Positions 46,651 through 60,895 of a stretch of 64,000 nt of DNA are shown here, piece by piece. Location: NCBI GenBank assembly GCA_011050675.1, contig DRFI01000020.1, positions 186,001 to 250,000 on the forward strand, written 5' to 3'. The first letter of the stretch is position 1. Each line of letters opens with the position of its first letter. Under the pieces are notes generated by a model. The model worked only from the letters and a program-made list of their open reading frames with translations, was not told the origin of the DNA and ran no database searches. The position numbers and the translations under genes were made by a program. This stretch comes from Maribacter sp. Its GTDB lineage: Bacteria > Bacteroidota > Bacteroidia > Flavobacteriales > Flavobacteriaceae.

Positions 46651-47433
46651 ATGAAAAATATTAATATTCAAGGTCTTAATTGGGATGCTAAATCATCGTT
46701 TCAAAAAGGACCAGCAAAAGCTCCATCTTTAATTAGAAAAGCACTTTATAGCGATTCTATGAATCTGTGTACCGAATTCGGGATATCTATTGAGAATGAC
46801 AACATAGCAGATAAAGGCGATTTTAAAATTGACGAGTATTTTGATATAACATCCATCACTAAAAAACATATTGCAGGAGGTGCAAAACTTCTGTCTTTAG
46901 GCGGTGACCATTCGGTTACTTTTCCCATTATAAAAGCTTTTCATGACCAATATCCAAAACTAGATATTCTTCATATAGATGCTCATGCAGATCTTTATCA
47001 TGACTATGAAGGTGACCCTTATTCTCATGCATGTCCATTTGCAAGAATTATGGAAAATGGATTTGCCGTAAAACTGGTACAAGTAGGTATAAGAACTTTA
47101 AATCCGCATCAAGCTTCACAGGCAGAAAAATATAAGGTAGATGTTCATGAAATGAGAAATCTAAACTTGAGTTCTATTAAAAAGTTCGAAAATCCTTTAT
47201 ATATTTCTTTAGACATGGATGGTTTCGATCCTGCGTTTGCTCCCGGAGTTTCTCATCATGAGCCAGGCGGACTCTCATCTCGTCAAGTCATCGATCTAAT
47301 TCACAGCATAAATACAGAAATAGTTGGTGCAGATATTGTGGAATACAACCCTGATCGCGACTTTAACGACATGACCGCTTACTTAGCTGCAAAAATGATG
47401 AAGGAGATTTTAGGAAAAATGATGGAACGTTGA
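46651..47433 (+). CDS. Ureohydrolase-family protein, agmatinase-like
   Basis: The 260-residue protein has the manganese-binding motifs of the arginase/agmatinase family: SLGGDHSVTFP, HIDAHADLYHD and SLDMDGFDPAFAPG. The first Asp pair of the last motif is D-M-D-G-F-D rather than the commoner D-I-D-x-x-D. Family members hydrolyse agmatine, arginine, formimidoylglutamate or guanidinobutyrate to release urea or formamide. Agmatinase is the likeliest by length and motif spacing, but substrate is open. Third gene after the AraC regulator; the arginine biosynthesis cluster lies 1.5 kb downstream. Confidence 0.83.
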   Translation: MKNINIQGLNWDAKSSFQKGPAKAPSLIRKALYSDSMNLCTEFGISIENDNIADKGDFKIDEYFDITSITKKHIAGGAKLLSLGGDHSVTFPIIKAFHDQYPKLDILHIDAHADLYHDYEGDPYSHACPFARIMENGFAVKLVQVGIRTLNPHQASQAEKYKVDVHEMRNLNLSSIKKFENPLYISLDMDGFDPAFAPGVSHHEPGGLSSRQVIDLIHSINTEIVGADIVEYNPDRDFNDMTAYLAAKMMKEILGKMMER

Positions 47434-48861: not shown

Positions 48862-48890
48862 TTGTCAAATAAATATAATTTGTACATTTA
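48862..48890 (+). promoter_or_regulatory. Candidate promoter of the arginine/proline operon
   Basis: TTG (48862-48864), an 18-base spacer and TACATTTA (48883-48890) resemble the Bacteroidota promoter, with A instead of G at the last position of the -7 element. Transcription would start within a few bases of the leader ATG at 48898, so the leader would be leaderless or nearly so. Confidence 0.4.
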
Positions 48891-48897
48891 CCCTGTA

Positions 48898-48984
48898 ATG
48901 AACGAAAAAATCTACTTTTTAAATAGTACCGTGAGCCCAGTTGCTCTTGCGCGTCCGTTCACATCTCGCCGTCGCCGCCCGTAA
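48898..48984 (+). CDS. Arginine-rich leader peptide (28 codons), attenuator candidate
   Basis: A 28-codon frame runs from ATG 48898 to TAA 48982-48984, upstream of the arginine gene cluster. It starts MNEKIYFLN and ends S-R-R-R-R-P. Five of 28 codons are Arg, four of them consecutive, and all are CGT or CGC, in a GC-rich patch unlike its AT-rich surroundings. Such a run is what a ribosome-stalling sensor of arginyl-tRNA would need. The stop lies 85 bases before the first structural gene. No similar peptide function is asserted from databases; the role is inferred from position and composition. Confidence 0.7.
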   Translation: MNEKIYFLNSTVSPVALARPFTSRRRRP

Positions 48985-49069
48985 GGGTAAGATATATTTA
49001 TGGAATTAGGTGAGTCCATTTCCGCACAGAAAATCAAAACTTTTTTTACACTTTTAAATCTAACTGGCA
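48985..49069 (+). promoter_or_regulatory. Leader RNA region after the Arg-rich peptide
   Basis: CTCGCC in the Arg-codon region (48965-48970) can pair with GGTGAG (49009-49014, one G-U pair). This competes with a local hairpin ATGGA/TCCAT (49000-49004 / 49015-49019) that would place GGTGAG in its loop. A T7 run follows at 49041-49047, but no strong GC hairpin stands directly before it. The competing pairings would fit attenuation; the terminator is weak as read by eye. Confidence 0.35.
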
Positions 49070-49702
49070 ATGAACTTAATTGTTGCTAACGAATCACATT
49101 TTAAATACGCTCAGGATATCTGCGACACCATAGCAGATTCGGCTAAAGTTCGCGGAACAGGTATTGCGAAACGTACACCAGAATACATCCAGAGAAAACT
49201 TTCTAACGGCAATGCTATTTTAGCTTTGGACGGAGAGAAATTTGCAGGTTTTTGCTACATCGAGGTTTGGGGACATGAGAAATTTGTTGCCAATTCTGGA
49301 CTTATAGTACACCCTGATTATAGGGGCCAAGGACTTGCAAAAAGCATAAAAGCTAGAATTTTCGAGCTCAGCAGAGAAAAATTTCCTGATGCCAAAATAT
49401 TTGGAATTACCACTGGTTTAGCCGTTATGAAAATTAACTACGAGCTTGGCTACAAACCTGTTACCTTCTCTGAGCTTACAGATGATCCCGAATTTTGGAA
49501 AGGCTGCCAAACCTGTAAAAATTTCGATATCCTTACCAGAACAGAACAGAAAATGTGCTTATGTACCGGTATGCTCTATGATGGTAATGTTAAGAAAAAA
49601 ACTGAGGAAGTAAAGCAAATGAATAGTAAAGCTTTTACCAGATTAAAAAGCATTAAAGAAAGTCTGTTCCTTAAAAAGAAAGTCGAAAAAAGTAAATCAT
49701 AA
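49070..49702 (+). CDS. GNAT acetyltransferase, candidate N-acetylglutamate synthase
   Basis: The 210-residue protein has a GNAT fold at about 10-130 with acetyl-CoA motif VHPDYRGQGLAKSIK (80-94). A Cys-rich tail follows: C146xxC149 and C163xC165, which could bind zinc or an iron-sulfur cluster. It is the first gene of the arginine cluster, where argA would be expected, and no argJ or classical argA is present in the window. N-acetylglutamate synthase is therefore a good guess for the first step, glutamate plus acetyl-CoA. Gene symbol left blank because the family is not proven here. Confidence 0.78.
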   Translation: MNLIVANESHFKYAQDICDTIADSAKVRGTGIAKRTPEYIQRKLSNGNAILALDGEKFAGFCYIEVWGHEKFVANSGLIVHPDYRGQGLAKSIKARIFELSREKFPDAKIFGITTGLAVMKINYELGYKPVTFSELTDDPEFWKGCQTCKNFDILTRTEQKMCLCTGMLYDGNVKKKTEEVKQMNSKAFTRLKSIKESLFLKKKVEKSKS

Positions 49703-49823: not shown

Positions 49824-51014
49824 ATGAAAAAATTAGTACTAGCATACAGTGGCGGATTAGATACATCTTATTGCGCAAAACATTTATCAAAAGACAAAGG
49901 CTTTGAAGTTCATGCAGTAAGTGTAAATACTGGTGGTTTTTCATCAGATGAAATAAAGGAAATTGAAGAAAAGGCGATTCAGTTGGGTGCTACTTCTTAT
50001 ACCTCTATTGATGCCGTACAAACGTTTTATGACAAGGTAGTTAAGTATCTTATTTTCGGAAACGTTCTAAAAAACAATACATACCCTCTTTCTGTTAGTG
50101 CAGAAAGAATAGTACAGGCTATTGAAATTGTAAACCACGCCAAAAAAGTTGGTGCTAAATATATCGCCCATGGTAGTACAGGCGCAGGAAATGACCAAGT
50201 ACGTTTCGATATGATTTTCCAAATTATAGCACCTGAAATTGAAATCATTACCCCTATAAGAGACAACAAATTGGCTAGGGAAGAAGAGATTGCTTACCTA
50301 AAAGAAAACGGAGTAGATTACCCTTGGGAAAAGGCAAAATACTCTATCAATAGAGGTCTATGGGGAACATCTGTAGGTGGCGAAGAAACTCTGACTTCAG
50401 ATAAAGCCTTGCCAGATAGTGCTTACCCAAGCCAGTTACAAGAAAAAAATCCGACAGATATCACCTTAACTTTTGAAAAAGGAGAGTTGGTAGCTGTTAA
50501 TGGAGAAAAAGATACGCCAGTAAATAACATTGAAAAAGTTGAAGCCCTTGCTTCTAAATATGCTATTGGCAGAGATATCCATGTTGGTGACACTATTATA
50601 GGTACTAAAGGAAGAGTTGGCTTTGAAGCTCCTGCTTCATTAATCATCATAAAAGCACACCACCTATTAGAAAAGCATACGCTTACCAAATGGCAACAAT
50701 ACCAAAAAGAACAACAAGGTAATTTCTACGGCATGTTGTTACATGAAGGTAGTTACCTAGATGCGGTAATGAGAAATATAGAAACCTTTTTGACCGACAC
50801 TCAAAAAACTGTTTCTGGTGATGTATATGTTGGCTTATATCCTTTTCAGTTTAGGCTGCACGGTATTTCATCTAAACATGATTTAATGACAGATGCTTTC
50901 GGTAAATATGGAGAAGTAAATAAAGGCTGGTCTGCAGATGATGCTAAAGGCTTTATAAAAATTCTTTCCAATTCAGGTAAAATATATAACCACGTAAATT
51001 CATCTGATGATTAA
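49824..51014 (+). CDS. argG: Argininosuccinate synthase
   Basis: The 396-residue enzyme has the ATP-PPi loop LAYSGGLDTSYC at residues 4-15, the AHGSTGAGNDQVRFD segment (about 112-126), and NRGLWGTSVGGEE. It joins citrulline and aspartate with ATP to give argininosuccinate, the penultimate step of arginine synthesis. The length is normal. The 121-base gap from the GNAT gene is the largest in the first half of the cluster; the 8-base overlap with argC downstream indicates coupling. Confidence 0.96.
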   Translation: MKKLVLAYSGGLDTSYCAKHLSKDKGFEVHAVSVNTGGFSSDEIKEIEEKAIQLGATSYTSIDAVQTFYDKVVKYLIFGNVLKNNTYPLSVSAERIVQAIEIVNHAKKVGAKYIAHGSTGAGNDQVRFDMIFQIIAPEIEIITPIRDNKLAREEEIAYLKENGVDYPWEKAKYSINRGLWGTSVGGEETLTSDKALPDSAYPSQLQEKNPTDITLTFEKGELVAVNGEKDTPVNNIEKVEALASKYAIGRDIHVGDTIIGTKGRVGFEAPASLIIIKAHHLLEKHTLTKWQQYQKEQQGNFYGMLLHEGSYLDAVMRNIETFLTDTQKTVSGDVYVGLYPFQFRLHGISSKHDLMTDAFGKYGEVNKGWSADDAKGFIKILSNSGKIYNHVNSSDD

Positions 51015-51981
51015 AACAGGAATTATTGGTGGATCTGGTTATACGGGTGGCGAACTTATTCGAATTCTATTGAATCACCCCGCAGTAGAAATAGATTTTG
51101 TTTACAGCACCACCAGAGCAGGAAAAAAGGTTACTACGACACACCCAGACCTTTTAGGAACAACAGATCTTGAATTTACAGGAAATGTAAACTTGAATGT
51201 CAATGTTGTTTTTCTTTGCCTGGGTCATGGTAATTCTACGGCTTTCTTAAAGGAGCATAGCTTTTCTACGGATACCATTATTATTGATTTAAGTAACGAT
51301 TTCAGATTACTTGCCGATGCTAATTTTAATGGCAAACAGTTTGTATACGGATTACCAGAATTGAACAAAAGTGACATAGAGAACGCAAAAAATATCGCAA
51401 ACCCTGGTTGTTTTGCCACTGCTATTCAACTAGCCCTGCTTCCATTAGCAAAAGCAAATTTCTTAGAAAATGAAGTGCACATAAATGCTGTAACTGGTAG
51501 TACAGGCGCAGGTGTTAGTCCGTCAGCCACTTCTCACTTTTCATGGCGAAATAATAATGTAAGTTGGTACAAACCTTTTACGCATCAGCATTTGGGAGAA
51601 ATCAACGAAAGTTTACATTCGCTTCAAGAGAATACTGGAAACTTATTTTTCATGCCCAACAGAGGAAATTTCACTCGTGGAATTTTAGCTACTTCGTATA
51701 CCAAATTCGACGGGGATTTATCAGAAGCAAACGCACTGTATCAAGATTTTTACAAAGATGCCGTTTTTACTCAAATTTCTGATGAACCCATCAACTTAAA
51801 ACAAGTGGTGAATACCAATCAGTGTCATGTGCACTTACATAAACACGATGATTTATTACTGGTTACCTCGGCAATTGATAACTTATTAAAAGGTGCATCG
51901 GGACAAGCAGTACAAAACATGAATTTGATTTTGGGACTAGAAGAAAATTTAGGACTGAATTTAAAGGCAGGGGTCTTTTAA
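51007..51981 (+). CDS. argC: N-acetyl-gamma-glutamyl-phosphate reductase
   Basis: The 324-residue enzyme has the NADP-binding IGGSGYTGGELIRIL (about 6-20), the catalytic Cys in NPGCFATAIQLALLP (about 136), and the C-terminal HxH segment NQCHVHLHKHD. It reduces N-acetylglutamyl phosphate to the semialdehyde. It overlaps argG by 8 bases. The proC gene follows after 42 bases. Length fits the family. Confidence 0.95.
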   Translation: MIKTGIIGGSGYTGGELIRILLNHPAVEIDFVYSTTRAGKKVTTTHPDLLGTTDLEFTGNVNLNVNVVFLCLGHGNSTAFLKEHSFSTDTIIIDLSNDFRLLADANFNGKQFVYGLPELNKSDIENAKNIANPGCFATAIQLALLPLAKANFLENEVHINAVTGSTGAGVSPSATSHFSWRNNNVSWYKPFTHQHLGEINESLHSLQENTGNLFFMPNRGNFTRGILATSYTKFDGDLSEANALYQDFYKDAVFTQISDEPINLKQVVNTNQCHVHLHKHDDLLLVTSAIDNLLKGASGQAVQNMNLILGLEENLGLNLKAGVF

Positions 51982-52023: not shown

Positions 52024-52818
52024 ATGAAAATAGCCATTATAGGTGCCGGTAATTTAGGACTTTCCATTGCAAACGGAATTTTAAAAAGTAATGGTGCCAC
52101 TAGCATGTACCTTACTAAAAGAGATACCAAGTCTATTGCTGATTTTGAAAAATTTGACAAGGTTACCGTTACGAACGATAACCGTTTGGCTGTGCAAAAT
52201 TCAGATATTTTAATATTTGCCGTGCAACCTGTTCATTTTGCTGAAATATTAGAAAGTGTTAAAGATCTACTGAATGAAAATCATGTGATAATTTCAACGA
52301 TAACGGGTTTCGGAATCGAAAAAATAGAGGCTGTTATCGGCAAAGATAATTACATAGTTAGAAGCATGCCAAATACGGCTATTTCTGTTGGTAAATCTAT
52401 GACCTGTATCTGCAGTAATGAAAAAGGTAAAAAACGTATCGATTTAACAAAGGCTATCTTCAACAGAATGGGTCATTCTATGGAAATACCTGAAAACCAA
52501 ATGCAAGCCGCAACGGTTATTTGTGCCAGTGGCATTGCTTTCTGGATGCGCTTAATACGTGCAACTACCCAAGGCGCCATACAATTAGGGTTTGATGCAA
52601 AAGAGGCCCAAGAACTAGCTATGCATACCTGTAATGGAGCCGCAAGTTTACTTATAGAATCGGGCAACCACCCCGAAGAGGAAATAGACCGTGTTACTAC
52701 ACCAATGGGCTGTACCATAACCGGATTAAACGAAATGGAACACCAAGGTTTAAGCTCATCTTTAATACGTGGCATTATTGCTTCTTATGATAAGATTACC
52801 GAATTTAAAACCAAGTAA
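52024..52818 (+). CDS. proC: Pyrroline-5-carboxylate reductase
   Basis: The 264-residue enzyme has the Rossmann motif IIGAGNLGLSIANGIL at the N-terminus, RSMPNTAISVGKSM (about 113) and the C-terminal P5CR dimerisation signature TTPMGCTITGLNEME. It reduces pyrroline-5-carboxylate to proline with NAD(P)H. Its place inside an arginine cluster means both pathways are expressed together. Confidence 0.95.
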   Translation: MKIAIIGAGNLGLSIANGILKSNGATSMYLTKRDTKSIADFEKFDKVTVTNDNRLAVQNSDILIFAVQPVHFAEILESVKDLLNENHVIISTITGFGIEKIEAVIGKDNYIVRSMPNTAISVGKSMTCICSNEKGKKRIDLTKAIFNRMGHSMEIPENQMQAATVICASGIAFWMRLIRATTQGAIQLGFDAKEAQELAMHTCNGAASLLIESGNHPEEEIDRVTTPMGCTITGLNEMEHQGLSSSLIRGIIASYDKITEFKTK

Positions 52819-52865: not shown

Positions 52866-53990
52866 ATGAAATTATTCGACGTTTACCCATTATATAATGT
52901 TACCCCTGTTTCCGCTAAAGGAATTGTAGTGACCGACGATAAAGGTCAAGATTATTTAGATTTTTACGGCGGGCATGCCGTAATATCCATTGGTCATACA
53001 CACCCACATTATGTGAAACGTTTAAAAGACCAATTAGATAAAATAGGGTTTTACAGTAACGCTGTTCAAAACCCGTTACAACAGGAATTAGCAGAAAAGC
53101 TTGGTGTAGCTTCTAATTGTGAAGATTACAATCTCTTTATGTGTAACTCTGGTGCCGAAGCAAACGAAAATGCCTTAAAAATGGCATCGTTCGTAACAGG
53201 AAAATCAAAAATTATTGCATTTAATAATGGCTTTCATGGGCGTACTTCTGCCGCAGTTGCCGCAACTGACAATCCGTCTATCAACGCAGAAATCAATCAA
53301 CAGCATGAAGTGGTTTTTCTTGACTTGAATGACATTAAAAATTTTGAAGGAGAAATTTCTAAGAATGTCTGTGCCGTAATCATAGAAACTATACAAGGTG
53401 TAGGTGGACTAGATGAACCTACCACAGAATTTTTACAGAAAGTAGCAGCCCTATGTAAAGAAAATGATGCTTTATTAATTGCTGATGAAGTACAATCTGG
53501 CTTTGGCAGAAGTGGTAAATTCTTTGGATTTCAGCATCATAACATACAGCCAGATATCATTAGTATCGCTAAAGGTATGGGGAATGGTTTCCCTGTTGGC
53601 GGTGTACTTATCCACGAAAGTATTAAGGCAAAATATGGAATGCTAGGGACCACTTTTGGTGGTAATCATTTAGCTTGTGTAGCTACATTGGCAGTTTTAG
53701 AGGTCATTGAAAATGAAAACTTAATTACCAATGCCGAAGAACTGGGAGTTTATTTCAATGAAAAGGCAAAAGAAATTCCGCAAGTAAAACGAGTAAAAGG
53801 AAAAGGTTTAATGCTAGGATTAGAATTTGATTTTCAAGTAGCTGATCTACGCAAAAAATTAATTCACGAGCACCACCTTTTTACCGGTGGCGCAAAAGAT
53901 AAAACGGTACTTAGGGTACTACCGGCATTGAATATTACCAAACAAGATTTAGACGTATTTTTCACAGCTCTTAAGACTGCTTTATCATGA
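52866..53990 (+). CDS. argD: Acetylornithine (N-acyl-ornithine) aminotransferase
   Basis: The 374-residue class III aminotransferase has GGHAVISIGHTHP near the start, the PLP-binding segment ADEVQSGFGRSGKFFG (about 205) and the Schiff-base Lys in SIAKGMGNGFPVGG (about 240). It transfers the amino group of glutamate to N-acetylglutamate semialdehyde. The 4-base ATGA overlap with proA indicates coupling. Acyl group preference (acetyl or succinyl) cannot be told by eye. Confidence 0.93.
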   Translation: MKLFDVYPLYNVTPVSAKGIVVTDDKGQDYLDFYGGHAVISIGHTHPHYVKRLKDQLDKIGFYSNAVQNPLQQELAEKLGVASNCEDYNLFMCNSGAEANENALKMASFVTGKSKIIAFNNGFHGRTSAAVAATDNPSINAEINQQHEVVFLDLNDIKNFEGEISKNVCAVIIETIQGVGGLDEPTTEFLQKVAALCKENDALLIADEVQSGFGRSGKFFGFQHHNIQPDIISIAKGMGNGFPVGGVLIHESIKAKYGMLGTTFGGNHLACVATLAVLEVIENENLITNAEELGVYFNEKAKEIPQVKRVKGKGLMLGLEFDFQVADLRKKLIHEHHLFTGGAKDKTVLRVLPALNITKQDLDVFFTALKTALS

Positions 53991-55186
53991 TAAAAACGCT
54001 CAGCTTAGCAAAAAGAAATGCCGTATTAAAACGTATGGCTGAATTGGTACAGCAAGAAGAATCAATTTTAGTGTCTGCCAATGAAAAAGATTTAAATTCT
54101 TTCGAATCTGCTGATATTGCAATGATCGACCGCTTAAAGGTGGATAAAAATAAGGTTAGAGAAATGGTTTCTTCCTTAAAAAAATTAGCTGCACTAGCCG
54201 ATCCTTTGCATGTAGAACGATTTCAATTTACTCATGACAACGGTTTAGAAATTAGTAATAAAACGGCCCCATTCGGTACTATTATGATTATCTATGAATC
54301 TAGACCAGATGTCACTATCGAAGCGGCAGGTATTGCTTTTAAATCTGGCAATAAGATTTTATTAAAAGGAGGAAAAGAATCGGTAAACTCTAACTTAGTT
54401 TTAGTCAATTTGTGGCATAAAGCTTTAGAGTCATGCGATTGTTCTGAAGATTGGATTACATATCTCAACTATTCACGAGAAGAAACGCAGCAGTTTCTTG
54501 AAAAACCAACTCAAAAATTAGATTTAATAGTTCCTCGTGGTGGTGAAAAACTAATTGCATTTGTAAAGAAACATGCGCAATGTCCAGTAATCGTTAGTGG
54601 TCGTGGTAATAACTTTGTGTATGTATCTCATGAGGCTGACTTACAAATGGCATTAGATATCATCATCAATGCAAAGACCACTAAAATATCTGCTTGCAAT
54701 GCGGTTGACAAGGTGATTATCTCTAGAGATTTACCCCGTAAAATGGAATTTTTAAATCACTTGGTTCAGACACTTAAAAAACATAATGTAGCAATTTTAA
54801 CCGATGCTAAATTATCAGGGTTAGATGGCACCTCGCAAATGGAAGATGAGTCTGTTTGGTATGAGGAGTTTTTAGATTACAAAATTGTTTTAGGCCAAGT
54901 GCCCAATGTGGAAGAGGCCATAACGCATATTAACACCTATGGCGGCGGACATTCTGCTGTAATTATTACCAAAGACGAAGAAGAGGCAGATGTATTTATG
55001 CAATCTGTTGATAGTGCTACGGTTTACCATAACGCATCTACCCGTTTTACAGATGGCGGTCAATTTGGACTTGGTGGTGAACTAGCAATTAGCACAGATA
55101 AATTACACCAACGCGGACCAATTGGTTTACAGCACTTAGTTACCAATAAATGGTACGTAAAAGGAAATGGTCAAGTTAGAAGCTAG
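53987..55186 (+). CDS. proA: Glutamate-5-semialdehyde dehydrogenase (gamma-glutamyl phosphate reductase)
   Basis: The 399-residue enzyme shows IMIIYESRPDVTIEAA (about 98), GGKESVNSN, IVPRGGEKLI and the catalytic Cys in KISACNAVDKV (about 245). It reduces glutamyl-5-phosphate made by ProB. Translation is coupled to argD by a 4-base overlap. The proB gene follows after 31 bases. Family length is about 410-420, so this is full length. Confidence 0.95.
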   Translation: MIKTLSLAKRNAVLKRMAELVQQEESILVSANEKDLNSFESADIAMIDRLKVDKNKVREMVSSLKKLAALADPLHVERFQFTHDNGLEISNKTAPFGTIMIIYESRPDVTIEAAGIAFKSGNKILLKGGKESVNSNLVLVNLWHKALESCDCSEDWITYLNYSREETQQFLEKPTQKLDLIVPRGGEKLIAFVKKHAQCPVIVSGRGNNFVYVSHEADLQMALDIIINAKTTKISACNAVDKVIISRDLPRKMEFLNHLVQTLKKHNVAILTDAKLSGLDGTSQMEDESVWYEEFLDYKIVLGQVPNVEEAITHINTYGGGHSAVIITKDEEEADVFMQSVDSATVYHNASTRFTDGGQFGLGGELAISTDKLHQRGPIGLQHLVTNKWYVKGNGQVRS

Positions 55187-55217
55187 ACATTTACAGTCTA
55201 GCAAAATCTAAAAGAGA

Positions 55218-55985
55218 ATGTTGAAAAAGAGAATTTTATTAAAATTAGGCTCCAATACCTTAACGAAAGACACTGATCATATATCCCGTGGTAAAATTGA
55301 GGATATAGGCAGACAAATAGCTGCTTTGAAAGATAAATATGAATTCATCATTGTTAGTTCTGGGGCTATTGCAGCAGCAAAACAATTCGTGAAATTGGAA
55401 CATAATGGCGAGGAAATTAATGTTAAACAGGCGCTAGCATCCATTGGACAGCCACACCTTATGCGTATTTTTCAAGAGAATTTTAGGGAGCTTGGGCTTT
55501 TTACATCCCAATGTTTGTTGTCTTATTCAGATTTCGAAAAAGAACAGTCTAGGCTGAATATTAAAAACACAATCAACGTCTTGGTTGCTAATAACTTCAT
55601 ACCTATTATCAATGAAAATGATACCGTTGCGACCGATGAAATCAAGTTTGGGGATAATGACAAATTAGCTGGTTTAACAGCATCGCTTTTATCTGCAGAT
55701 ATATTGATTATTGCCACAAATACAAATGGCATCTACACCAAAGCCTCTTTAGCATCGACCACTCCAAAAACAATTGAACTAGTTTCTGATTTGAGCGAAC
55801 TATTAAAAGAAATTGGGGAATCTAAATCTACTCATGGCACAGGCGGTATGCAATCTAAAATAGATGCGGCAACCATTGCCCAAACCGCAGGTATTGAAAC
55901 CTGGATTACCAATGGTTTAAATGATAATTTTATAACGGACGCCATTGATAACAAAAGCACATTTACGAAAATAAAAACATCATGA
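55218..55985 (+). CDS. proB: Glutamate 5-kinase, without PUA domain
   Basis: The 255-residue amino-acid kinase begins KKRILLKLGSNTLTKD, has IVSSGAIAAAKQF, the substrate segment IPIINENDTVATDEIKFGDNDKLAG (read in two parts, about 132-157), and GTGGMQSKIDAA. It phosphorylates glutamate, the first proline step. E. coli ProB has a C-terminal PUA domain of about 100 residues that is missing here; shorter ProB proteins occur in other phyla. Feedback by proline may therefore differ. Overlaps argF' by 4 bases. Confidence 0.94.
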   Translation: MLKKRILLKLGSNTLTKDTDHISRGKIEDIGRQIAALKDKYEFIIVSSGAIAAAKQFVKLEHNGEEINVKQALASIGQPHLMRIFQENFRELGLFTSQCLLSYSDFEKEQSRLNIKNTINVLVANNFIPIINENDTVATDEIKFGDNDKLAGLTASLLSADILIIATNTNGIYTKASLASTTPKTIELVSDLSELLKEIGESKSTHGTGGMQSKIDAATIAQTAGIETWITNGLNDNFITDAIDNKSTFTKIKTS

Positions 55986-56920
55986 ATTACCTTTCAATAA
56001 ACGATATCGACTCTTTATCCACTTGGGTAAAAGAAGCAATATCTCTTAAAAATCAGCCTAAAAAACATAAATCTCTTGGTAATGATAAAACTATAGGACT
56101 TTTGTTTTTCAATAACTCTCTTCGTACCCGTTTAAGCACTCAGAAAGCGGCAATGAATCTAGGCATGGAAGTAATTGTCATGAATTTTGGAAGCGAAGGT
56201 TGGGCTTTGGAATATGCTGATGGCACTATTATGGACCAAGGCACATCTGAGCATATAAAAGAAGCAGCTCAGGTTATTTCTCAATATTGCGATATAATTG
56301 CAATTCGTGCTTTTGCCGGTTTGGTAGATAAAGAACTAGATGAAGCAGAAGAAGTTCTTAATGGATTTAAAACATATGCTACTGTACCCATCGTAAATAT
56401 GGAAAGTTCTGTTGGTCACCCATTACAGGCACTTACCGATGCTATTACACTAGAGGAACATAATTTCAAGAACAATCCGAAAATCGTCTTATCATGGGCA
56501 CCACACCCAAGAGCATTACCACATGCGGTTGCCAATTCTTTTGTGCAAATGATGCAGAAACAAAATGCTGAATTTGTAATTACGCATCCCGAAGGATATG
56601 ATCTCGATCCAAACATCACTAAAGATTGTAAAATAGAATATGACCAAGAGAAAGCTTTGGAAAATGCTGATTTTGTTTATGTAAAAAACTGGAGCAGCTA
56701 TACCGATTATGGACAGATAAAATCACAGGACACTAATTGGCAAATGACCTTAAAAAAATTGGGCAAAGCTAAATTCATGCACTGCCTACCTGTTCGAAGA
56801 AATGTAGTGGTTGCCGATGAAGTTTTGGACAGCAAACAATCACTGGTCATAGAGCAGGCTAATAATAGAACGTATGCCGCTCAATTAGTTTTAAAGAAAA
56901 TACTAGAAGATTTAAAATAA
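55982..56920 (+). CDS. argF': N-acetyl- (or N-succinyl-) ornithine carbamoyltransferase
   Basis: The 312-residue transcarbamylase has a carbamoyl-phosphate motif NNSLRTRLSTQ (about 41-51), where ordinary ornithine transcarbamylases read STRT, and HCLPVRRNVVV near residue 261. The region FGSEGWALEYADGTIMDQG and the HCLPVRR ending match the acyl-ornithine class of Bacteroidota and Xanthomonas, which act on N-acyl-ornithine before deacylation. The acetyl versus succinyl preference depends on a few loop residues that I cannot place with certainty. The 7-base gap to the SDR gene keeps it in the operon. Confidence 0.9.
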   Translation: MNYLSINDIDSLSTWVKEAISLKNQPKKHKSLGNDKTIGLLFFNNSLRTRLSTQKAAMNLGMEVIVMNFGSEGWALEYADGTIMDQGTSEHIKEAAQVISQYCDIIAIRAFAGLVDKELDEAEEVLNGFKTYATVPIVNMESSVGHPLQALTDAITLEEHNFKNNPKIVLSWAPHPRALPHAVANSFVQMMQKQNAEFVITHPEGYDLDPNITKDCKIEYDQEKALENADFVYVKNWSSYTDYGQIKSQDTNWQMTLKKLGKAKFMHCLPVRRNVVVADEVLDSKQSLVIEQANNRTYAAQLVLKKILEDLK

Positions 56921-56926
56921 AAAATA

Positions 56927-57679
56927 GTGCAAAAACTTGAGAACAAAGTAGCAATTATTACAGGAGCAACTAGCGGAATGGGTAAAGCCATAGCTACTTC
57001 ATTTGTTGCAAATGGCGCCAAAGTAATTTTATCTGGTCGTGATGAAACTCGAGGTAATGCTTTATCTGCTGAACTAGGTGAAAATGCTGTTTTTGTAGCT
57101 GGCGATATTAGAATTTCTGAATACAACGAACAATTGGTCAAAGCTGCCATTCATCATTTTGAAAAACTGGACATTGTTTCCATGAATGCAGGCATACTTG
57201 GCATAGGTAGTGTAACAGATTTACCAGATGAATTATGGAAGAATACAATGGACACCAATTTGTCTTCCATTTTCTATTTATCAAAATATGCAATCCCTGA
57301 ACTCCAAAAAAACGAAGGGTCTTCTATTTTAATAAATGCCTCTATAGCCGCTTACAAAAGTTTTCCTAACCACCCTGCCTATTGTGCTTCTAAAGCTGGA
57401 GCATTAGCACTAATGCGCCAATTGGCCGTAGAGTATGCACCTGAAATTAGGGTCAATGCAATATGCCCAGGCCCAGTAGATACTCCGCTACTTTGGGATT
57501 CGGCAAAAGCTTTTGACAACCCGAACAAAGCTGTAGAAAACGCAGCGAACAAAACATTATTAAAACGACTGGGCAAACCAAAAGACATTGCCAATCTTGC
57601 TTTATTTCTAGTATCAGAAGATGCTTCATGGATTACTGGAACGGCAATGACGATAGATGGCGGAATTTTAAATGCTTAA
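56927..57679 (+). CDS. SDR-family oxidoreductase inside the arginine cluster
   Basis: The 250-residue protein starts at GTG 56927. It has the NAD(P) motif TGATSGMGKAIA (about 13-24), NAG in MNAGILG, the catalytic Ser near INASIAAYKS and the YCASKAG (YxxxK) pair about residue 147, and ends IDGGILNA as in FabG-like dehydrogenases. No arginine or proline step needs such an enzyme. It lies between argF' and argB and its stop overlaps the argB start by 8 bases, so it is firmly part of the transcript. Substrate unknown. Confidence 0.88.
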   Translation: MQKLENKVAIITGATSGMGKAIATSFVANGAKVILSGRDETRGNALSAELGENAVFVAGDIRISEYNEQLVKAAIHHFEKLDIVSMNAGILGIGSVTDLPDELWKNTMDTNLSSIFYLSKYAIPELQKNEGSSILINASIAAYKSFPNHPAYCASKAGALALMRQLAVEYAPEIRVNAICPGPVDTPLLWDSAKAFDNPNKAVENAANKTLLKRLGKPKDIANLALFLVSEDASWITGTAMTIDGGILNA

Positions 57680-58460
57680 CATGAAAGAAAAACTATCCGT
57701 AGTAAAAATTGGAGGAAATGTCATAGAAGATGAAAAAGCATTAGATAACTTTCTGACTGCATTTTCTAAACTAGATGGACTTAAAATATTAGTACATGGC
57801 GGTGGAAAATTAGCCACTCAATTAGCAACCAAAATGGGTATTGAATCTAAAATGATTGATGGCAGGCGTATTACCGATGCCGAAACCGTAGATATTATCA
57901 CCATGGTATATGGGGGTTTAGCCAACAAGAAAATCGTAGCTCAATTACAATCTAAAAAAGTCAATGCCATTGGTTTAAGTGGCGCAGATGGCAACAGTAT
58001 ACAAGCTCATAAACGTCCTGTAAAACAAATTGACTACGGCTTTGTTGGAGATATTGACGGTGTTAATTCTGAATTAATAAAGAACCTACTATCTATAAAC
58101 CTTACTCCTATTTTCTGTGCTCTTTCTCATGATGGCGCTGGACAATTACTAAATACCAACGCTGACACTATTGCCTCTGAAATTGCAATTGGTATGGCAT
58201 CGATTTTTGAAACTACGCTTTATTATTGCTTTGAAAAAAAAGGTGTTTTATTGGAAATTTCCGATGATAATAGCGTGGTTAAAAATATTGATACAACCAA
58301 ATACAAAGAACTTTTATCTAAAGGTGTTATAGCTGACGGCATGCTTCCTAAGCTTCATAACTGCTTTCATGCATTAAATAACAAGGTTGAAAAGGTTTGC
58401 TTAGGCGATGTTAGTATGCTAGATAAAAACACAGAACTGTTCACCACTTTAAAATTATAA
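57672..58460 (+). CDS. argB: Acetylglutamate kinase
   Basis: The 262-residue amino-acid kinase begins SVVKIGGNVIED, has LVHGGGKLATQLA (about 39-51), GLSGADGNSI and NTNADTIASEIA. It phosphorylates N-acetylglutamate, the second arginine step. Two starts are possible: ATG 57672, which overlaps the SDR stop, or ATG 57681 three codons later. ArgB of this length lacks a long N-terminal extension linked to arginine feedback in some bacteria. Confidence 0.94.
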   Translation: MLNMKEKLSVVKIGGNVIEDEKALDNFLTAFSKLDGLKILVHGGGKLATQLATKMGIESKMIDGRRITDAETVDIITMVYGGLANKKIVAQLQSKKVNAIGLSGADGNSIQAHKRPVKQIDYGFVGDIDGVNSELIKNLLSINLTPIFCALSHDGAGQLLNTNADTIASEIAIGMASIFETTLYYCFEKKGVLLEISDDNSVVKNIDTTKYKELLSKGVIADGMLPKLHNCFHALNNKVEKVCLGDVSMLDKNTELFTTLKL

Positions 58461-58461
58461 G

Positions 58462-59526
58462 ATGAACCAAACAGAACTTACAGAAAGCGCTATAGAATTA
58501 TTGAAGGAATTGATTTCAATAGAATCTTTTTCTAAAGAGGAAGATCAAACCGCAGATGCTGTACAGGCTTGGTTGGGAAAATACAATATCCCAACTGAAA
58601 GGGACCTCAACAATATCATCGCCAAGAACAAATATTGGGACGAATCAAAACCTACACTACTTTTAAATTCTCATCACGATACCGTAAAGCCAAATACTGC
58701 ATATACCAAAGACCCATTTCTACCACATATTGAAGATGGTAAATTATTCGGGTTAGGCAGCAATGATGCTGGCGGACCTCTAGTTTCCTTATTGGCAACT
58801 TTTGTTACTTATTATAATTCTGAAGACCTTAACCATAATATTTTAATGGTAGCTTCTGCAGAAGAAGAGAATGCTGGAGAAAATAGCCTACGTGGATTAC
58901 TACCAAAACTACCACATATTGATGTTGCAATTGTTGGCGAACCCACCCTAATGCAACTTGCCATAGCCGAAAAAGGGCTTGTGGTTTTTGATGCCGTAAT
59001 AAAAGGTACACCATCACATGCAGCCCACCCAAATGATAACAATTCCATTTATAAATCCATTAAAGTATTAGAATGGTTTAAAAATTATAAATTCGAGAAA
59101 AGCTCTGAAGCTTTAGGTGATGTAAAAATGACCGTTACCCAAATAAATGCAGGAACACAGCACAACGTGGTACCTGCACATGTTGACTTGGTAGTTGATG
59201 TAAGGGTAAACGATGCCTATAGTAACAAAGAAATTGCAGATTTGCTGAAGAAGGATGCTCCATGCGAATTAAAGGAACGATCTTTACGTCTAAATTCATC
59301 GAAAATAAATAAAGACCATCCGTTAGTGCAGTCTGGTGTTGCGCTAGGCAGAACAACTTATGGATCTCCTACTCTTTCGGATCAAGCAGCGTTAAGTTGT
59401 CAATCATTAAAATTAGGACCAGGAGATAGTACACGTTCCCATTCTGCTAATGAATTTATTTATGTTGATGAAATTGAAGAAGGTATAGATTTGTATATTA
59501 AAATATTAAAAGGATTTTTGCACTAA
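58462..59526 (+). CDS. argE: M20-family N-acetyl(acyl)ornithine/citrulline deacetylase
   Basis: The 354-residue metallopeptidase has the zinc motifs LLNSHHDTVKP (about 69-79), GSNDAGGPLVSL (about 98-109) and ASAEEENAGENS (about 130-141), and the dimerisation region GTPSHAAHPN. It removes the acyl group. In pathways that use acyl-ornithine carbamoyltransferase the substrate is N-acylcitrulline, as expected here. It follows argB by 1 base. Confidence 0.92.
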   Translation: MNQTELTESAIELLKELISIESFSKEEDQTADAVQAWLGKYNIPTERDLNNIIAKNKYWDESKPTLLLNSHHDTVKPNTAYTKDPFLPHIEDGKLFGLGSNDAGGPLVSLLATFVTYYNSEDLNHNILMVASAEEENAGENSLRGLLPKLPHIDVAIVGEPTLMQLAIAEKGLVVFDAVIKGTPSHAAHPNDNNSIYKSIKVLEWFKNYKFEKSSEALGDVKMTVTQINAGTQHNVVPAHVDLVVDVRVNDAYSNKEIADLLKKDAPCELKERSLRLNSSKINKDHPLVQSGVALGRTTYGSPTLSDQAALSCQSLKLGPGDSTRSHSANEFIYVDEIEEGIDLYIKILKGFLH

Positions 59527-59617
59527 GCTTACAGCTAGCAATTAAAAAATTATAAAGAGCTGGTATCATATTTTATAAAACAAAATTGATATTTGTTCTT
59601 GAACTTGAACTTGACTT

Positions 59618-60895
59618 ATGAAACTCTGGGATAAAGGATTTAGCACCGATAAGAAGATTGACCATTTTACTGTAGGAAATGATAGAAAACTTGATTTGCA
59701 TTTAGCGAAGTATGATGTAATTGCATCTAAAGCACACGCTAAAATGCTAGGTGAAATTGGTTTAATTACTCCCAAAGAAACCAAAGAGCTTGTAAATGAA
59801 CTAGATCATATTGCGGCACGAATAGAAAAAGGTACATTCTCTATAGAGAAATCTTTTGAGGACATGCATTCAAAAATTGAATACATGCTTACGCTTAGTT
59901 TAGGTGATACAGGCAAAAAAATACATACAGCGAGGTCAAGAAACGATCAAGTTTTAGTGGCTATGCATCTTTATTTAAAAGATGAACTAGAAGAAATAAA
60001 ATCAATGACCAAATCGCTTTTTAACCTTCTTCTGGTAAAAGCGCAGGAACATAAAGATGTAATGCTACCGGGCTATACGCACTTACAAATTGCTATGCCG
60101 TCTTCTTTCGGACTTTGGTTTTCTGCCTATGCGGAAAGTTTAATAGACGATCTTTATTTTATTGAAGCTGCATATAAAGTTGTCGATCAGAACCCTTTAG
60201 GTAGTGCTGCCGGGTACGGTAGTTCATTTGCTATCGACCGTAGATTCACCACCAAAGAAATGGGTTTTAGCACTTTAAAATATAACGTAGTTGCTGCTCA
60301 AATGAGTAGAGGGAAAGCTGAAAAGGCAACCGCTTTCGGTATTGCAAACATTGCTGCTACCCTATCGAAAATGGCAATGGACATTTGCTTGTACATGAGT
60401 CAGAATTTTGATTTCATCTCATTCCCGGATGAATTGACTACAGGTTCTAGCATTATGCCACATAAGAAAAATCCAGACGTTTTTGAGTTGGTTCGCGGTA
60501 AGTGTAATAAGCTACAATCTATACCCAACCAATTAACTTTAATCATAAATAACCTACCAAGTGGTTATCATAGAGATTTACAATTGGTGAAAGAAATCAT
60601 TGTTCCGGCTATTCAAGACATGAAAGCTTGTTTGGAGATTTTGACCTTTAGTCTAAAAGAAATTAGAGTAAATAAAAACATTCTAGACGACCCTAAGTAT
60701 GACTACTTATTTAGTGTAGATACCCTAAATGAATTGGTACAGAATGGAATGCCTTTTAGAGATGCTTACAAGAAAATGGGGCAAGAAATAAATGATGGTA
60801 CATTTATTCCAAAAAGAGATATTCATCATACTCATGAAGGTAGTTTAGGTAATTTATGCTTGAAAGAAATTCATGATAAGATGAAAAAGGTTTAA
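59618..60895 (+). CDS. argH: Argininosuccinate lyase
   Basis: The 425-residue enzyme has TARSRNDQVLVAMHLYLK, the loop signature GSSIMPHKKNPDVFEL (about 281-296) and the PLGSAAGYGSS segment. It splits argininosuccinate to arginine and fumarate, the final step. The 91-base gap before it contains tandem CTTGAA repeats close to the start. It ends overlapping the convergent YihY gene by 4 bases. Confidence 0.95.
   Translation: MKLWDKGFSTDKKIDHFTVGNDRKLDLHLAKYDVIASKAHAKMLGEIGLITPKETKELVNELDHIAARIEKGTFSIEKSFEDMHSKIEYMLTLSLGDTGKKIHTARSRNDQVLVAMHLYLKDELEEIKSMTKSLFNLLLVKAQEHKDVMLPGYTHLQIAMPSSFGLWFSAYAESLIDDLYFIEAAYKVVDQNPLGSAAGYGSSFAIDRRFTTKEMGFSTLKYNVVAAQMSRGKAEKATAFGIANIAATLSKMAMDICLYMSQNFDFISFPDELTTGSSIMPHKKNPDVFELVRGKCNKLQSIPNQLTLIINNLPSGYHRDLQLVKEIIVPAIQDMKACLEILTFSLKEIRVNKNILDDPKYDYLFSVDTLNELVQNGMPFRDAYKKMGQEINDGTFIPKRDIHHTHEGSLGNLCLKEIHDKMKKV

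Follow-up and report, generated by a model that had tools for sequence, protein, structure and literature searches.

In the pyrBI leader of Escherichia coli, a ribosome on the leader open reading frame (ORF) prevents a downstream hairpin from forming, UTP is sensed through pausing of RNA polymerase, and the terminator is a normal one. Leader ORFs with arginine codons are already known for other genes, namely, as far as the available texts describe them, orf34 of Salmonella speF (PMC6386406) and the rbfL uORF of Staphylococcus aureus (PMC13009471). According to the available part of a 2010 report, the only leader-peptide systems known to its authors until their own Firmicutes case were in Proteobacteria and Actinobacteria (PMC2965389). 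The Bacteroidota initiate translation without Shine-Dalgarno pairing, and the available text of a study of Flavobacterium psychrophilum reports strong clues that leader-peptide attenuators precede amino-acid operons, which is to say that such control is already suspected in flavobacteria (PMC9723704). The original prediction for the locus described here was ribosome-mediated attenuation sensing arginyl-tRNA, a control mode that it called little described for Bacteroidota; this is a fair statement, but one that has to be read beside the F. psychrophilum clues already in print (PMC9723704). A search of the open-access literature on leader-peptide attenuation, Bacteroidota and arginine codons returned no published description of this arginine element.

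The locus lies in a window of 64,000 nt from a Maribacter genome, the window being the whole stretch of DNA that was analysed. The element found there is probably an arginine attenuator that acts in cis, is mediated by the ribosome and has a non-canonical output.

Leader reading frame and downstream cluster

The features at the 5' end of the locus and the genes that follow them are these (an asterisk in a peptide denotes the stop):

48862..48890, + strand: promoter-like element, with TTG at 48862-48864, 18 nt, and TACATTTA at 48883-48890
48898..48984, + strand: leader ORF of 28 codons, MNEKIYFLNSTVSPVALARPFTSRRRRP, ending in ...SRRRRP, with start ATG at 48898 and stop TAA at 48982-48984
48952 (CGT), 48967 (CGC), 48970 (CGT), 48973 (CGC) and 48976 (CGC), + strand: putative regulatory Arg codons of the leader ORF
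49070..49702, + strand: GNAT acetyltransferase, first gene of the cluster (PF00583, PF13508)
49824-51014, + strand: argG (by Pfam)
51007-51981, + strand: argC-type semialdehyde dehydrogenase (by Pfam)
52024-52818, + strand: proC (by Pfam)
52866-53990, + strand: class III aminotransferase of argD type (by Pfam)
53987..60895, + strand: rest of the cluster, ORFs named by reading their translations, presumably proA, proB, an argF-type gene, an SDR gene, argB, an argE-type gene and argH

The elementary claims about the ORF are borne out by the sequence: its 28 codons end in RRRRP and stop, all five Arg codons are CGN, and 85 nt separate the stop from the GNAT start at 49070. The GC-rich patch in an AT-rich genome is equally real, with 69% GC over the final 36 nt of the ORF against 35% for the window. 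Among window ORFs with an ATG start, 10-40 codons and at least four Arg in the last six codons, it is the single example, while dinucleotide shuffles (n = 40) give a mean of 0.075 and a maximum of 1.

The cognate operon stands on the same strand, and a promoter, recognised by motif only, precedes the leader. The sequence TACATTTA (48883-48890) is close to the Bacteroidota consensus TAnnTTTG and leaves 7 nt between its end and the leader ATG. A box TAnnTTT[GA] ending 5-10 nt 5' of the leader ATG recurs in 113 of the 141 loci (out of 208) that have an ATG-started leader of the RRP type, against 8.3 after shuffling (maximum 15); a TTG 16-21 nt upstream of the box accompanies just 26 of these 113. 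The available text of PMC9723704 places the promoter box at -12 to -5, which would put the transcription start at about 48895, 3 nt 5' of the leader ATG, and would make the leader mRNA almost leaderless; the same text counts 5.5% of F. psychrophilum mRNAs as leaderless.

Two features of the surroundings may be recorded here. The GNAT protein (49070-49702) has a Cys-rich C-terminal part (GCQTCKNF...KMCLCTG), odd for a plain acetyltransferase and possibly a metal site. A ureohydrolase-like gene (46651-47433), which by its GGDHS and DAHAD motifs reads as a member of the arginase or agmatinase family, lies in the same orientation about 1.6 kb 5' of the arginine cluster.

The GNAT gene was found in 44 of 60 relatives and in 168 of 249 genomes of the family. 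A leader ORF precedes it in all 36 loci that come, the window counted in, from this genus or from one sister genus, and a leader is listed for 79 of 80 named loci (Maribacter, Zobellia, Pricia, Arenibacter, Cellulophaga, Flagellimonas and others); it reads ...APRRRRP* in L094, and in L128, which stops at a contig edge, it is visible only at its end. A leader criterion (an ORF of 15-50 aa that begins with ATG, GTG or TTG and has three or more Arg among its final 14 codons) was applied to 127 Flavobacteriaceae loci, the best-matching of the 168, about 38 weaker ones being left out. The conserved short ORF with terminal Arg codons that the original prediction proposed to look for in other Flavobacteriaceae is indeed there: 124 of the 127 loci pass, against 12.5 after shuffling, the three failures being L156, L179 and L260. 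With ATG alone the count is 109/127 against 6.6, and 13/127 on the reverse strand (ATG). Codons for the product amino acid are thus clustered in a leader ORF that is kept in relatives.

Beyond the family, 5 of 8 loci of the order pass (0.7 expected; with ATG only, 3/8 against 0.2). From the class, 51 loci (L284-L334) were drawn, of which 9 were dropped for want of a usable gene start; of the 42 judged, 31 pass against 6.9 expected; in 16 of these 42 (L310 on) the gene start comes from a weak match in a short stretch. ATG starts alone give 30/42 against 3.0, and the reverse strand 7/42. Many class leaders show no sequence relationship, for instance MNQQSLNKPITRVIFAPVAAAWVLTVAIFSPSRRRPYMPRA (L308) and MKQVLLNYRSLRRRPYAAG (L320), and these counts suggest that arginine is widely sensed through leader peptides across the class.

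Within the family the peptide start drifts and its N-terminal half is variable; beyond the cognate codons, only the terminal R-R-P is widely kept, RRP* closing 126 of 149 leaders. These 149, out of 150 non-redundant family loci, are those with a script-found leader, and in their last 12 codons 585 of 611 Arg codons are CGY (CGC or CGT), compared with 50 of 147 across 18 window genes. This bias is partly demanded by a hairpin described below (hairpin A), but only the last Arg codon sits in its arm, and the Arg codons of the window leader outside that arm are CGY too.

Departures from the single-leader arrangement also occur. In genus g146 the GNAT gene stands without Arg leader or hairpin B at L260 and L283 (both G184) and at L282 (G404); the leader seems to have been lost there and, since the gene occurs without it in two genomes, would be dispensable in some genomes. 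Conversely, tandem leaders, in which a first, separate Arg-rich ORF such as MKNLKNKIRCTIPGLPVRSRRRF lies upstream of the RRP leader, are seen at about 49 family loci out of the 127 (50 were listed, of which L149 is false, being the tail of an upstream gene; no chance control stands behind the count), and in L187, L196, L202, L206, L209 and other loci the first leader lies some 300 to 226 nt 5' of the gene.

The arginine repressor ArgR (PF02863) was found in none of the 60 relatives, this genome included, while 8 of 14 control genomes have it. Its absence from the sampled genomes means that something else must adjust arginine synthesis, and the leader is a concrete, conserved candidate regulator with defined codons and hairpins. 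Across the class, 8 of 149 genomes carry ArgR. An argR-like gene adjoins the GNAT gene in L316, L326, L332 and L334 (G376, G410, G336 and G441), where ArgR may do the leader's job; the ArgR match is distant and marginal in G413, and G343, G382 and G416 are absent from the listed GNAT matches. The two ArgR-adjacent loci with a usable gene start (L332, L334) have no Arg leader, which is consistent, in very few cases, with ArgR and leader being alternatives.

Hairpins and the search for a terminator

Three features of the leader end and the spacer bear on the output:

48977..48988, + strand: hairpin A, GCCC-GTAA-GGGT, -6.1 kcal/mol
49002..49023, + strand: hairpin B, GGAATT, bulged A, GG, loop TGAGT, CC, ATTTCC, with motif AGGTGHGTCC
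49041..49047, + strand: T7 run, without a hairpin before it and not conserved

Hairpin A holds the stop codon in its loop, its 5' arm being part of the last Arg codon and part of the Pro codon. In relatives it is mostly CGCCC-GTAA-GGGTG, with the stem CGCCC/GGGTG in 92 and the loop GTAA in 105 of 150 loci. Swap tests started from 208 loci, of which 8 lacked a strict loop within 180 nt or gave too short a stretch, and 150 of the other 200 were kept as non-redundant. Own arms of hairpin A form 4.88 pairs against 3.97 after swapping (maximum 4.13 of 300), a difference biased upwards since the own arms were those of each sequence's best hairpin. In A4, an alignment fitted to a model (100 rows, 99 sources, with one spurious weak match, L138, at 11.8 bits), the hairpin is mostly invariant: one of its pairs reads GU:87/GC:10 and another CG:94/AU:3, and the outermost pair does not form in 22 of 97 rows, this locus among them. 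A stem is retained in the cases read where the loop loses TAA and the ORF continues, as RRPLGV* or RRTFVRA* (L169, L174, L238, L248, L254), and in other families a stop codon was again seen by eye inside a hairpin loop of different sequence (L294, L295, L309, L322). Hairpin A is thus conserved with modest covariation.

The second structure, hairpin B (49002-49023), folds alone at -4.4 kcal/mol and carries one T.T mismatch in this genus; relatives show GGAAAT-A-GG-TGAGT-CC-ATTTCC plus many variants. In the swap test, which needs no alignment, own flanks give 6.34 pairs against 4.39 (maximum 4.72 of 300; 150 loci). There are 71 distinct stems, and the A before GG is present in 143 of 150 loci, these being selected by the loop motif. 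Two-sided changes occur on A4 at 7/7 outer and 1/2 inner pairs, GG/CC changes jointly to GA/TC in 4 rows, and the outermost pair fails in 44 of 99. For both hairpins together, 93.7% of A4 cells pair against 85.5% shuffled, 110 cells against 28.4 have two-sided changes, and the covariation score is 0.295 against 0.135; none of 500 shuffles is as high in any of the five measures, and the signal is lost when partners are slid, although related sequences can beat shuffles even without structure. A4 favours the structure used to fit it, so the alignment-free swap test of hairpin B shares the burden of the claim. A4 replaced the MAFFT alignment A2, on which RNAalifold found 2 pairs because the spacers misalign the stems. 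Hairpin B covaries strongly in the compared sequences.

The strict loop of hairpin B is present in 121 of 127 family loci (GGTGHGTCC 115, GATGYGTTC 4, GGTGYGCCC 2) and absent from L198, L200, L202, L235, L259 and L260, of which L202 has a degenerate form; in 108 of the 121, the distance to the GNAT start falls between -57 and -72. In other families, judged by eye on 18 loci picked from 40, the second hairpin often shows a pentaloop such as TACGC, TACGT or TGCGC. The model R1, built from 98 of the 127 family loci plus the window, has a single match in the genome; in 295 class genomes it yields under strict filters 10 matches at E <=0.1, four of them in family members at E <=0.005, the six non-family matches (E 0.01-0.07) being taken for chance. 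That hairpin B might be a repeated element was rejected on the one model match in the genome and on GGTGHGTCC occurring 18 times against 14 for a reversed control; of the 17 other sites, L266 and L267 have 5-6-pair stems, and no CGY run stands in the 75 nt shown. A reading of AGGTGA as a Shine-Dalgarno mimic, suggested by complementarity, was likewise dropped, the joint GG/CC to GA/TC changes favouring a stem instead. The leader region has no Rfam match at gathering score, neither to a T-box or riboswitch nor to another family; two sub-threshold matches (E 1.7 and 3.9) are to sRNA families and leave the hairpins uncovered.

The switch of the original prediction fares less well than its sensor. 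The T7 run exists at 49041-49047, but no hairpin abuts it and, among 30 loci, L006 and L020-L030 have it shortened or interrupted; it is probably not a terminator tail. No terminator-like site was recognised between leader and first gene in the window. In the Flavobacteriaceae, terminator-like sites occur at 9 of 150 loci against 4.2 expected, near chance and with the window not among the nine, and outside the family at 9 of 40 against 1.2, above chance. The stretch 23-38 nt 3' of hairpin B is generally T-rich, as is the spacer (52% T, 25% A; 121 loci); a U-tract after hairpin B is absent as a rule, L211 being the only case with B as a terminator-like hairpin. An extension of B by its flanks into a terminator was discarded, with 6.8 enclosing pairs against 8.2 for shuffled flanks. 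Five loci (L170, L226, L250, L252, L262) resemble a terminator made of hairpin A and the T-rich spacer.

The proposed antiterminator was a pairing of the Arg-codon region with 49009-49014, in competition with a local hairpin at 49000-49019. A hairpin at that place is possible (-2.5 kcal/mol), but the one that is conserved is the overlapping hairpin B. The pairing too is possible, CTCGCC (48965-48970) with GGTGAG (49009-49014), and enters the minimum-energy fold of the region; as an antiterminator it was not clearly supported, the comparison with permuted loops showing no more than a weak trend. Of 150 relatives, 47.3% have a 6-bp partner of the B loop 5' of hairpin A, against 42.4% +/- 2.8 with permuted loops (28/500 as high), and, with the A arm included, 52.0% have one, against 47.8% +/- 2.7 (40/500 as high). 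A scan of leader-hairpin pairings in 12-nt windows that stopped short of the GNAT start codon region, partners swapped among the 150 loci, found no helix: the top gain was 0.37 kcal/mol (-1.38 vs -1.01), and z of -3 to -5, from 12 permutations, was scattered over weak windows. The strongest mean pairing energy, between the A 5' arm and the loop of B, equals its swapped value (-7.19 vs -7.17 kcal/mol) because both sides are invariant. At 18 loci of other families, chosen by eye, the stop region pairs with B at -4.36 (own) and -4.27 (swapped; 203/500 as low), and the last 8 codons at -6.44 and -6.16 (152/500 as low); at the single loci L291, L292, L294, L295 and L299 an alternative helix looks convincing. 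The covarying pairings that the prediction had suggested looking for exist in B and, modestly, in A; its antiterminator shows that weak trend at most.

Attenuators of canonical appearance occur in this genome and in the comparison set. Upstream of hisG in the same genome (L335, contig C23 of G000), the leader MKNRTTHHHIHTHAQAR* precedes a 12-bp intrinsic terminator of -16.6 kcal/mol with a competing helix of -14.2 kcal/mol, to all appearance a textbook his attenuator; the flavobacterial arginine leader thus differs from the arrangement that the same cells apparently employ for histidine. In the stretch read at the ilvD locus of this genome, no recognisable Ile/Val/Leu leader was seen. In another Bacteroidia family (f53), the Arg leaders of L312 and L320 are followed by a canonical 11-bp terminator with U-tract (-18.0 and -17.6 kcal/mol) and a strong competing helix (-14.9 and -19.5 kcal/mol), a classical form of the same arginine control; a third f53 locus, L291, has an Arg leader without such a terminator.

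Proposed mechanism and rival explanations

In the preferred reading, transcription would start a few bases 5' of the leader ATG, and translation of the ORF would begin at a nearly leaderless 5' end. As long as Arg-tRNA is ample, the ribosome would pass the CGY codons, reach the stop and leave, upon which hairpin A could form over the codon-Pro-stop region and hairpin B behind it, and transcription into the arginine genes would be cut down. With scarce Arg-tRNA(CGY), a ribosome stalled at the Arg codons would cover A with its footprint, A would not form, and RNA polymerase would proceed into the operon. We hold with considerable confidence that the leader ORF senses arginine: conserved CGY codons, a cognate cluster and the lack of ArgR in 60 relatives are what ribosome sensing of Arg-tRNA predicts, and this part of the original prediction stands, while its antiterminator-terminator switch is not supported. 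Premature termination as the output is somewhat favoured, the analogues being this genome's his leader and the two arginine leaders of the other Bacteroidia family. Whether the ribosome directly occludes hairpin A is evenly balanced, a counterpoint being that a ribosome at the stop codon also covers A briefly. As A and B carry no U-tract, termination could be due to Rho, to hairpin A acting as a weak intrinsic terminator or to a factor that recognises the B loop, and the missing terminator raises the question of how transcription stops in this phylum. A bolder version remains tentative and on balance doubtful: a new architecture in which the ribosome gates a stop-codon hairpin, and a terminator-less B with its bulged A and near-invariant pentaloop is read by a trans-acting factor, be it an RNA-binding protein, Rho or RNA polymerase, the whole system standing in for ArgR in this lineage. 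If true, this would be a termination mode not described so far.

Several other accounts share parts of this evidence. In a Rho-dependent scheme, reminiscent of tnaC control, the C-rich leader end (CGY CGY CGC CCG) would be a Rho loading site hidden by the stalled ribosome, with B as a pause or processing hairpin. The C-rich codon run and the near-chance terminator count suit this scheme, as does the involvement of Rho with the consecutive Arg codons of Salmonella orf34 in the available account (PMC6386406), but Rho loading leaves the near-invariant B loop unexplained and, as orf34 translation protects from Rho, the sign may differ here; we regard it as unlikely. In another account B, with its bulged A, GG/CC and fixed loop, would be the binding site of a trans-acting protein, the leader ORF merely setting its exposure. 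The A before GG persists while the outer stem takes 71 forms, the strict loop recurs in 121/127 family loci without motif selection, GG/CC turns into GA/TC jointly in four rows, and the model matches once in the genome. Set against this are the want of a candidate protein, the fact that loops of very stable hairpins can be kept for folding alone, and the other pentaloops seen by eye in other families, and this sequence-based reading is distinctly unlikely in our estimation.

Control of translation or mRNA stability, in which the leader ribosome would shield or expose a region that sets GNAT mRNA decay or initiation, agrees with the distance between B and the GNAT start that the family keeps and with the ending of the speF case in RNase G decay (PMC6386406, available text); that distance is not kept in other families, and the account is improbable. 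The RRP* end in 126/149 leaders might also point to nascent-peptide arrest by the basic RRRRP without codon reading, but hairpin A also requires the final Arg codon and the Pro codon, the variants RRPLGV*, PRP* and SRP* occur, and the rest of the peptide is not conserved, which makes arrest very improbable. A functionless chance ORF is a negligible prospect in view of its frequency in the window (1 vs 0.075), its conservation (124/127 vs 12.5) and the covariation.

Comparison with known systems

The attenuator reading shares with E. coli pyrBI a leader-ORF ribosome that blocks a hairpin, and differs from it in that pyrBI senses UTP and has a normal terminator. Salmonella orf34 has in common with this locus consecutive Arg codons that sense arginine, no intrinsic terminator found, and a hairpin 3' of the stop, whereas gene, phylum and RNA differ, speF is not an arginine biosynthetic gene, and Rho and RNase G have been demonstrated for speF, the present case being built on sequence comparison (PMC6386406, available text). 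The locus is not of the orf34 type, in which a DUF2618 leader precedes speF: the downstream gene is a GNAT acetyltransferase, and the HIRRT*HIMM core given in the available text of PMC6386406 was not seen by eye in the leader peptide. The S. aureus rbfL uORF is likewise an Arg-codon leader peptide that senses arginine limitation, but it uses AGA/AGG codons and occludes the rbf start site, whereas CGY codons lie here 85 nt from the gene (PMC13009471, available text).

Closer in phylogeny, the putative attenuators of F. psychrophilum share the phylum and the link with amino-acid operons; the available text names no operon, codon or hairpin, and the element described here may be among the 64 structured 5' regions reported there (PMC9723704). 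The Bacteroid-trp RNA (RF01692) also shares the phylum, and the GUCCY-hairpin, an RNA name in the available text of the same source, is compared here by name alone (PMC2864571).

From attenuators of the his/trp type, the element departs in sensing arginine, in placing the stop codon within the loop of hairpin A, in having a hairpin B usually without U-tract and in its lack of a supported antiterminator, whereas it shares with them a short leader ORF, clustered cognate codons, a cognate operon and a conserved RNA structure.
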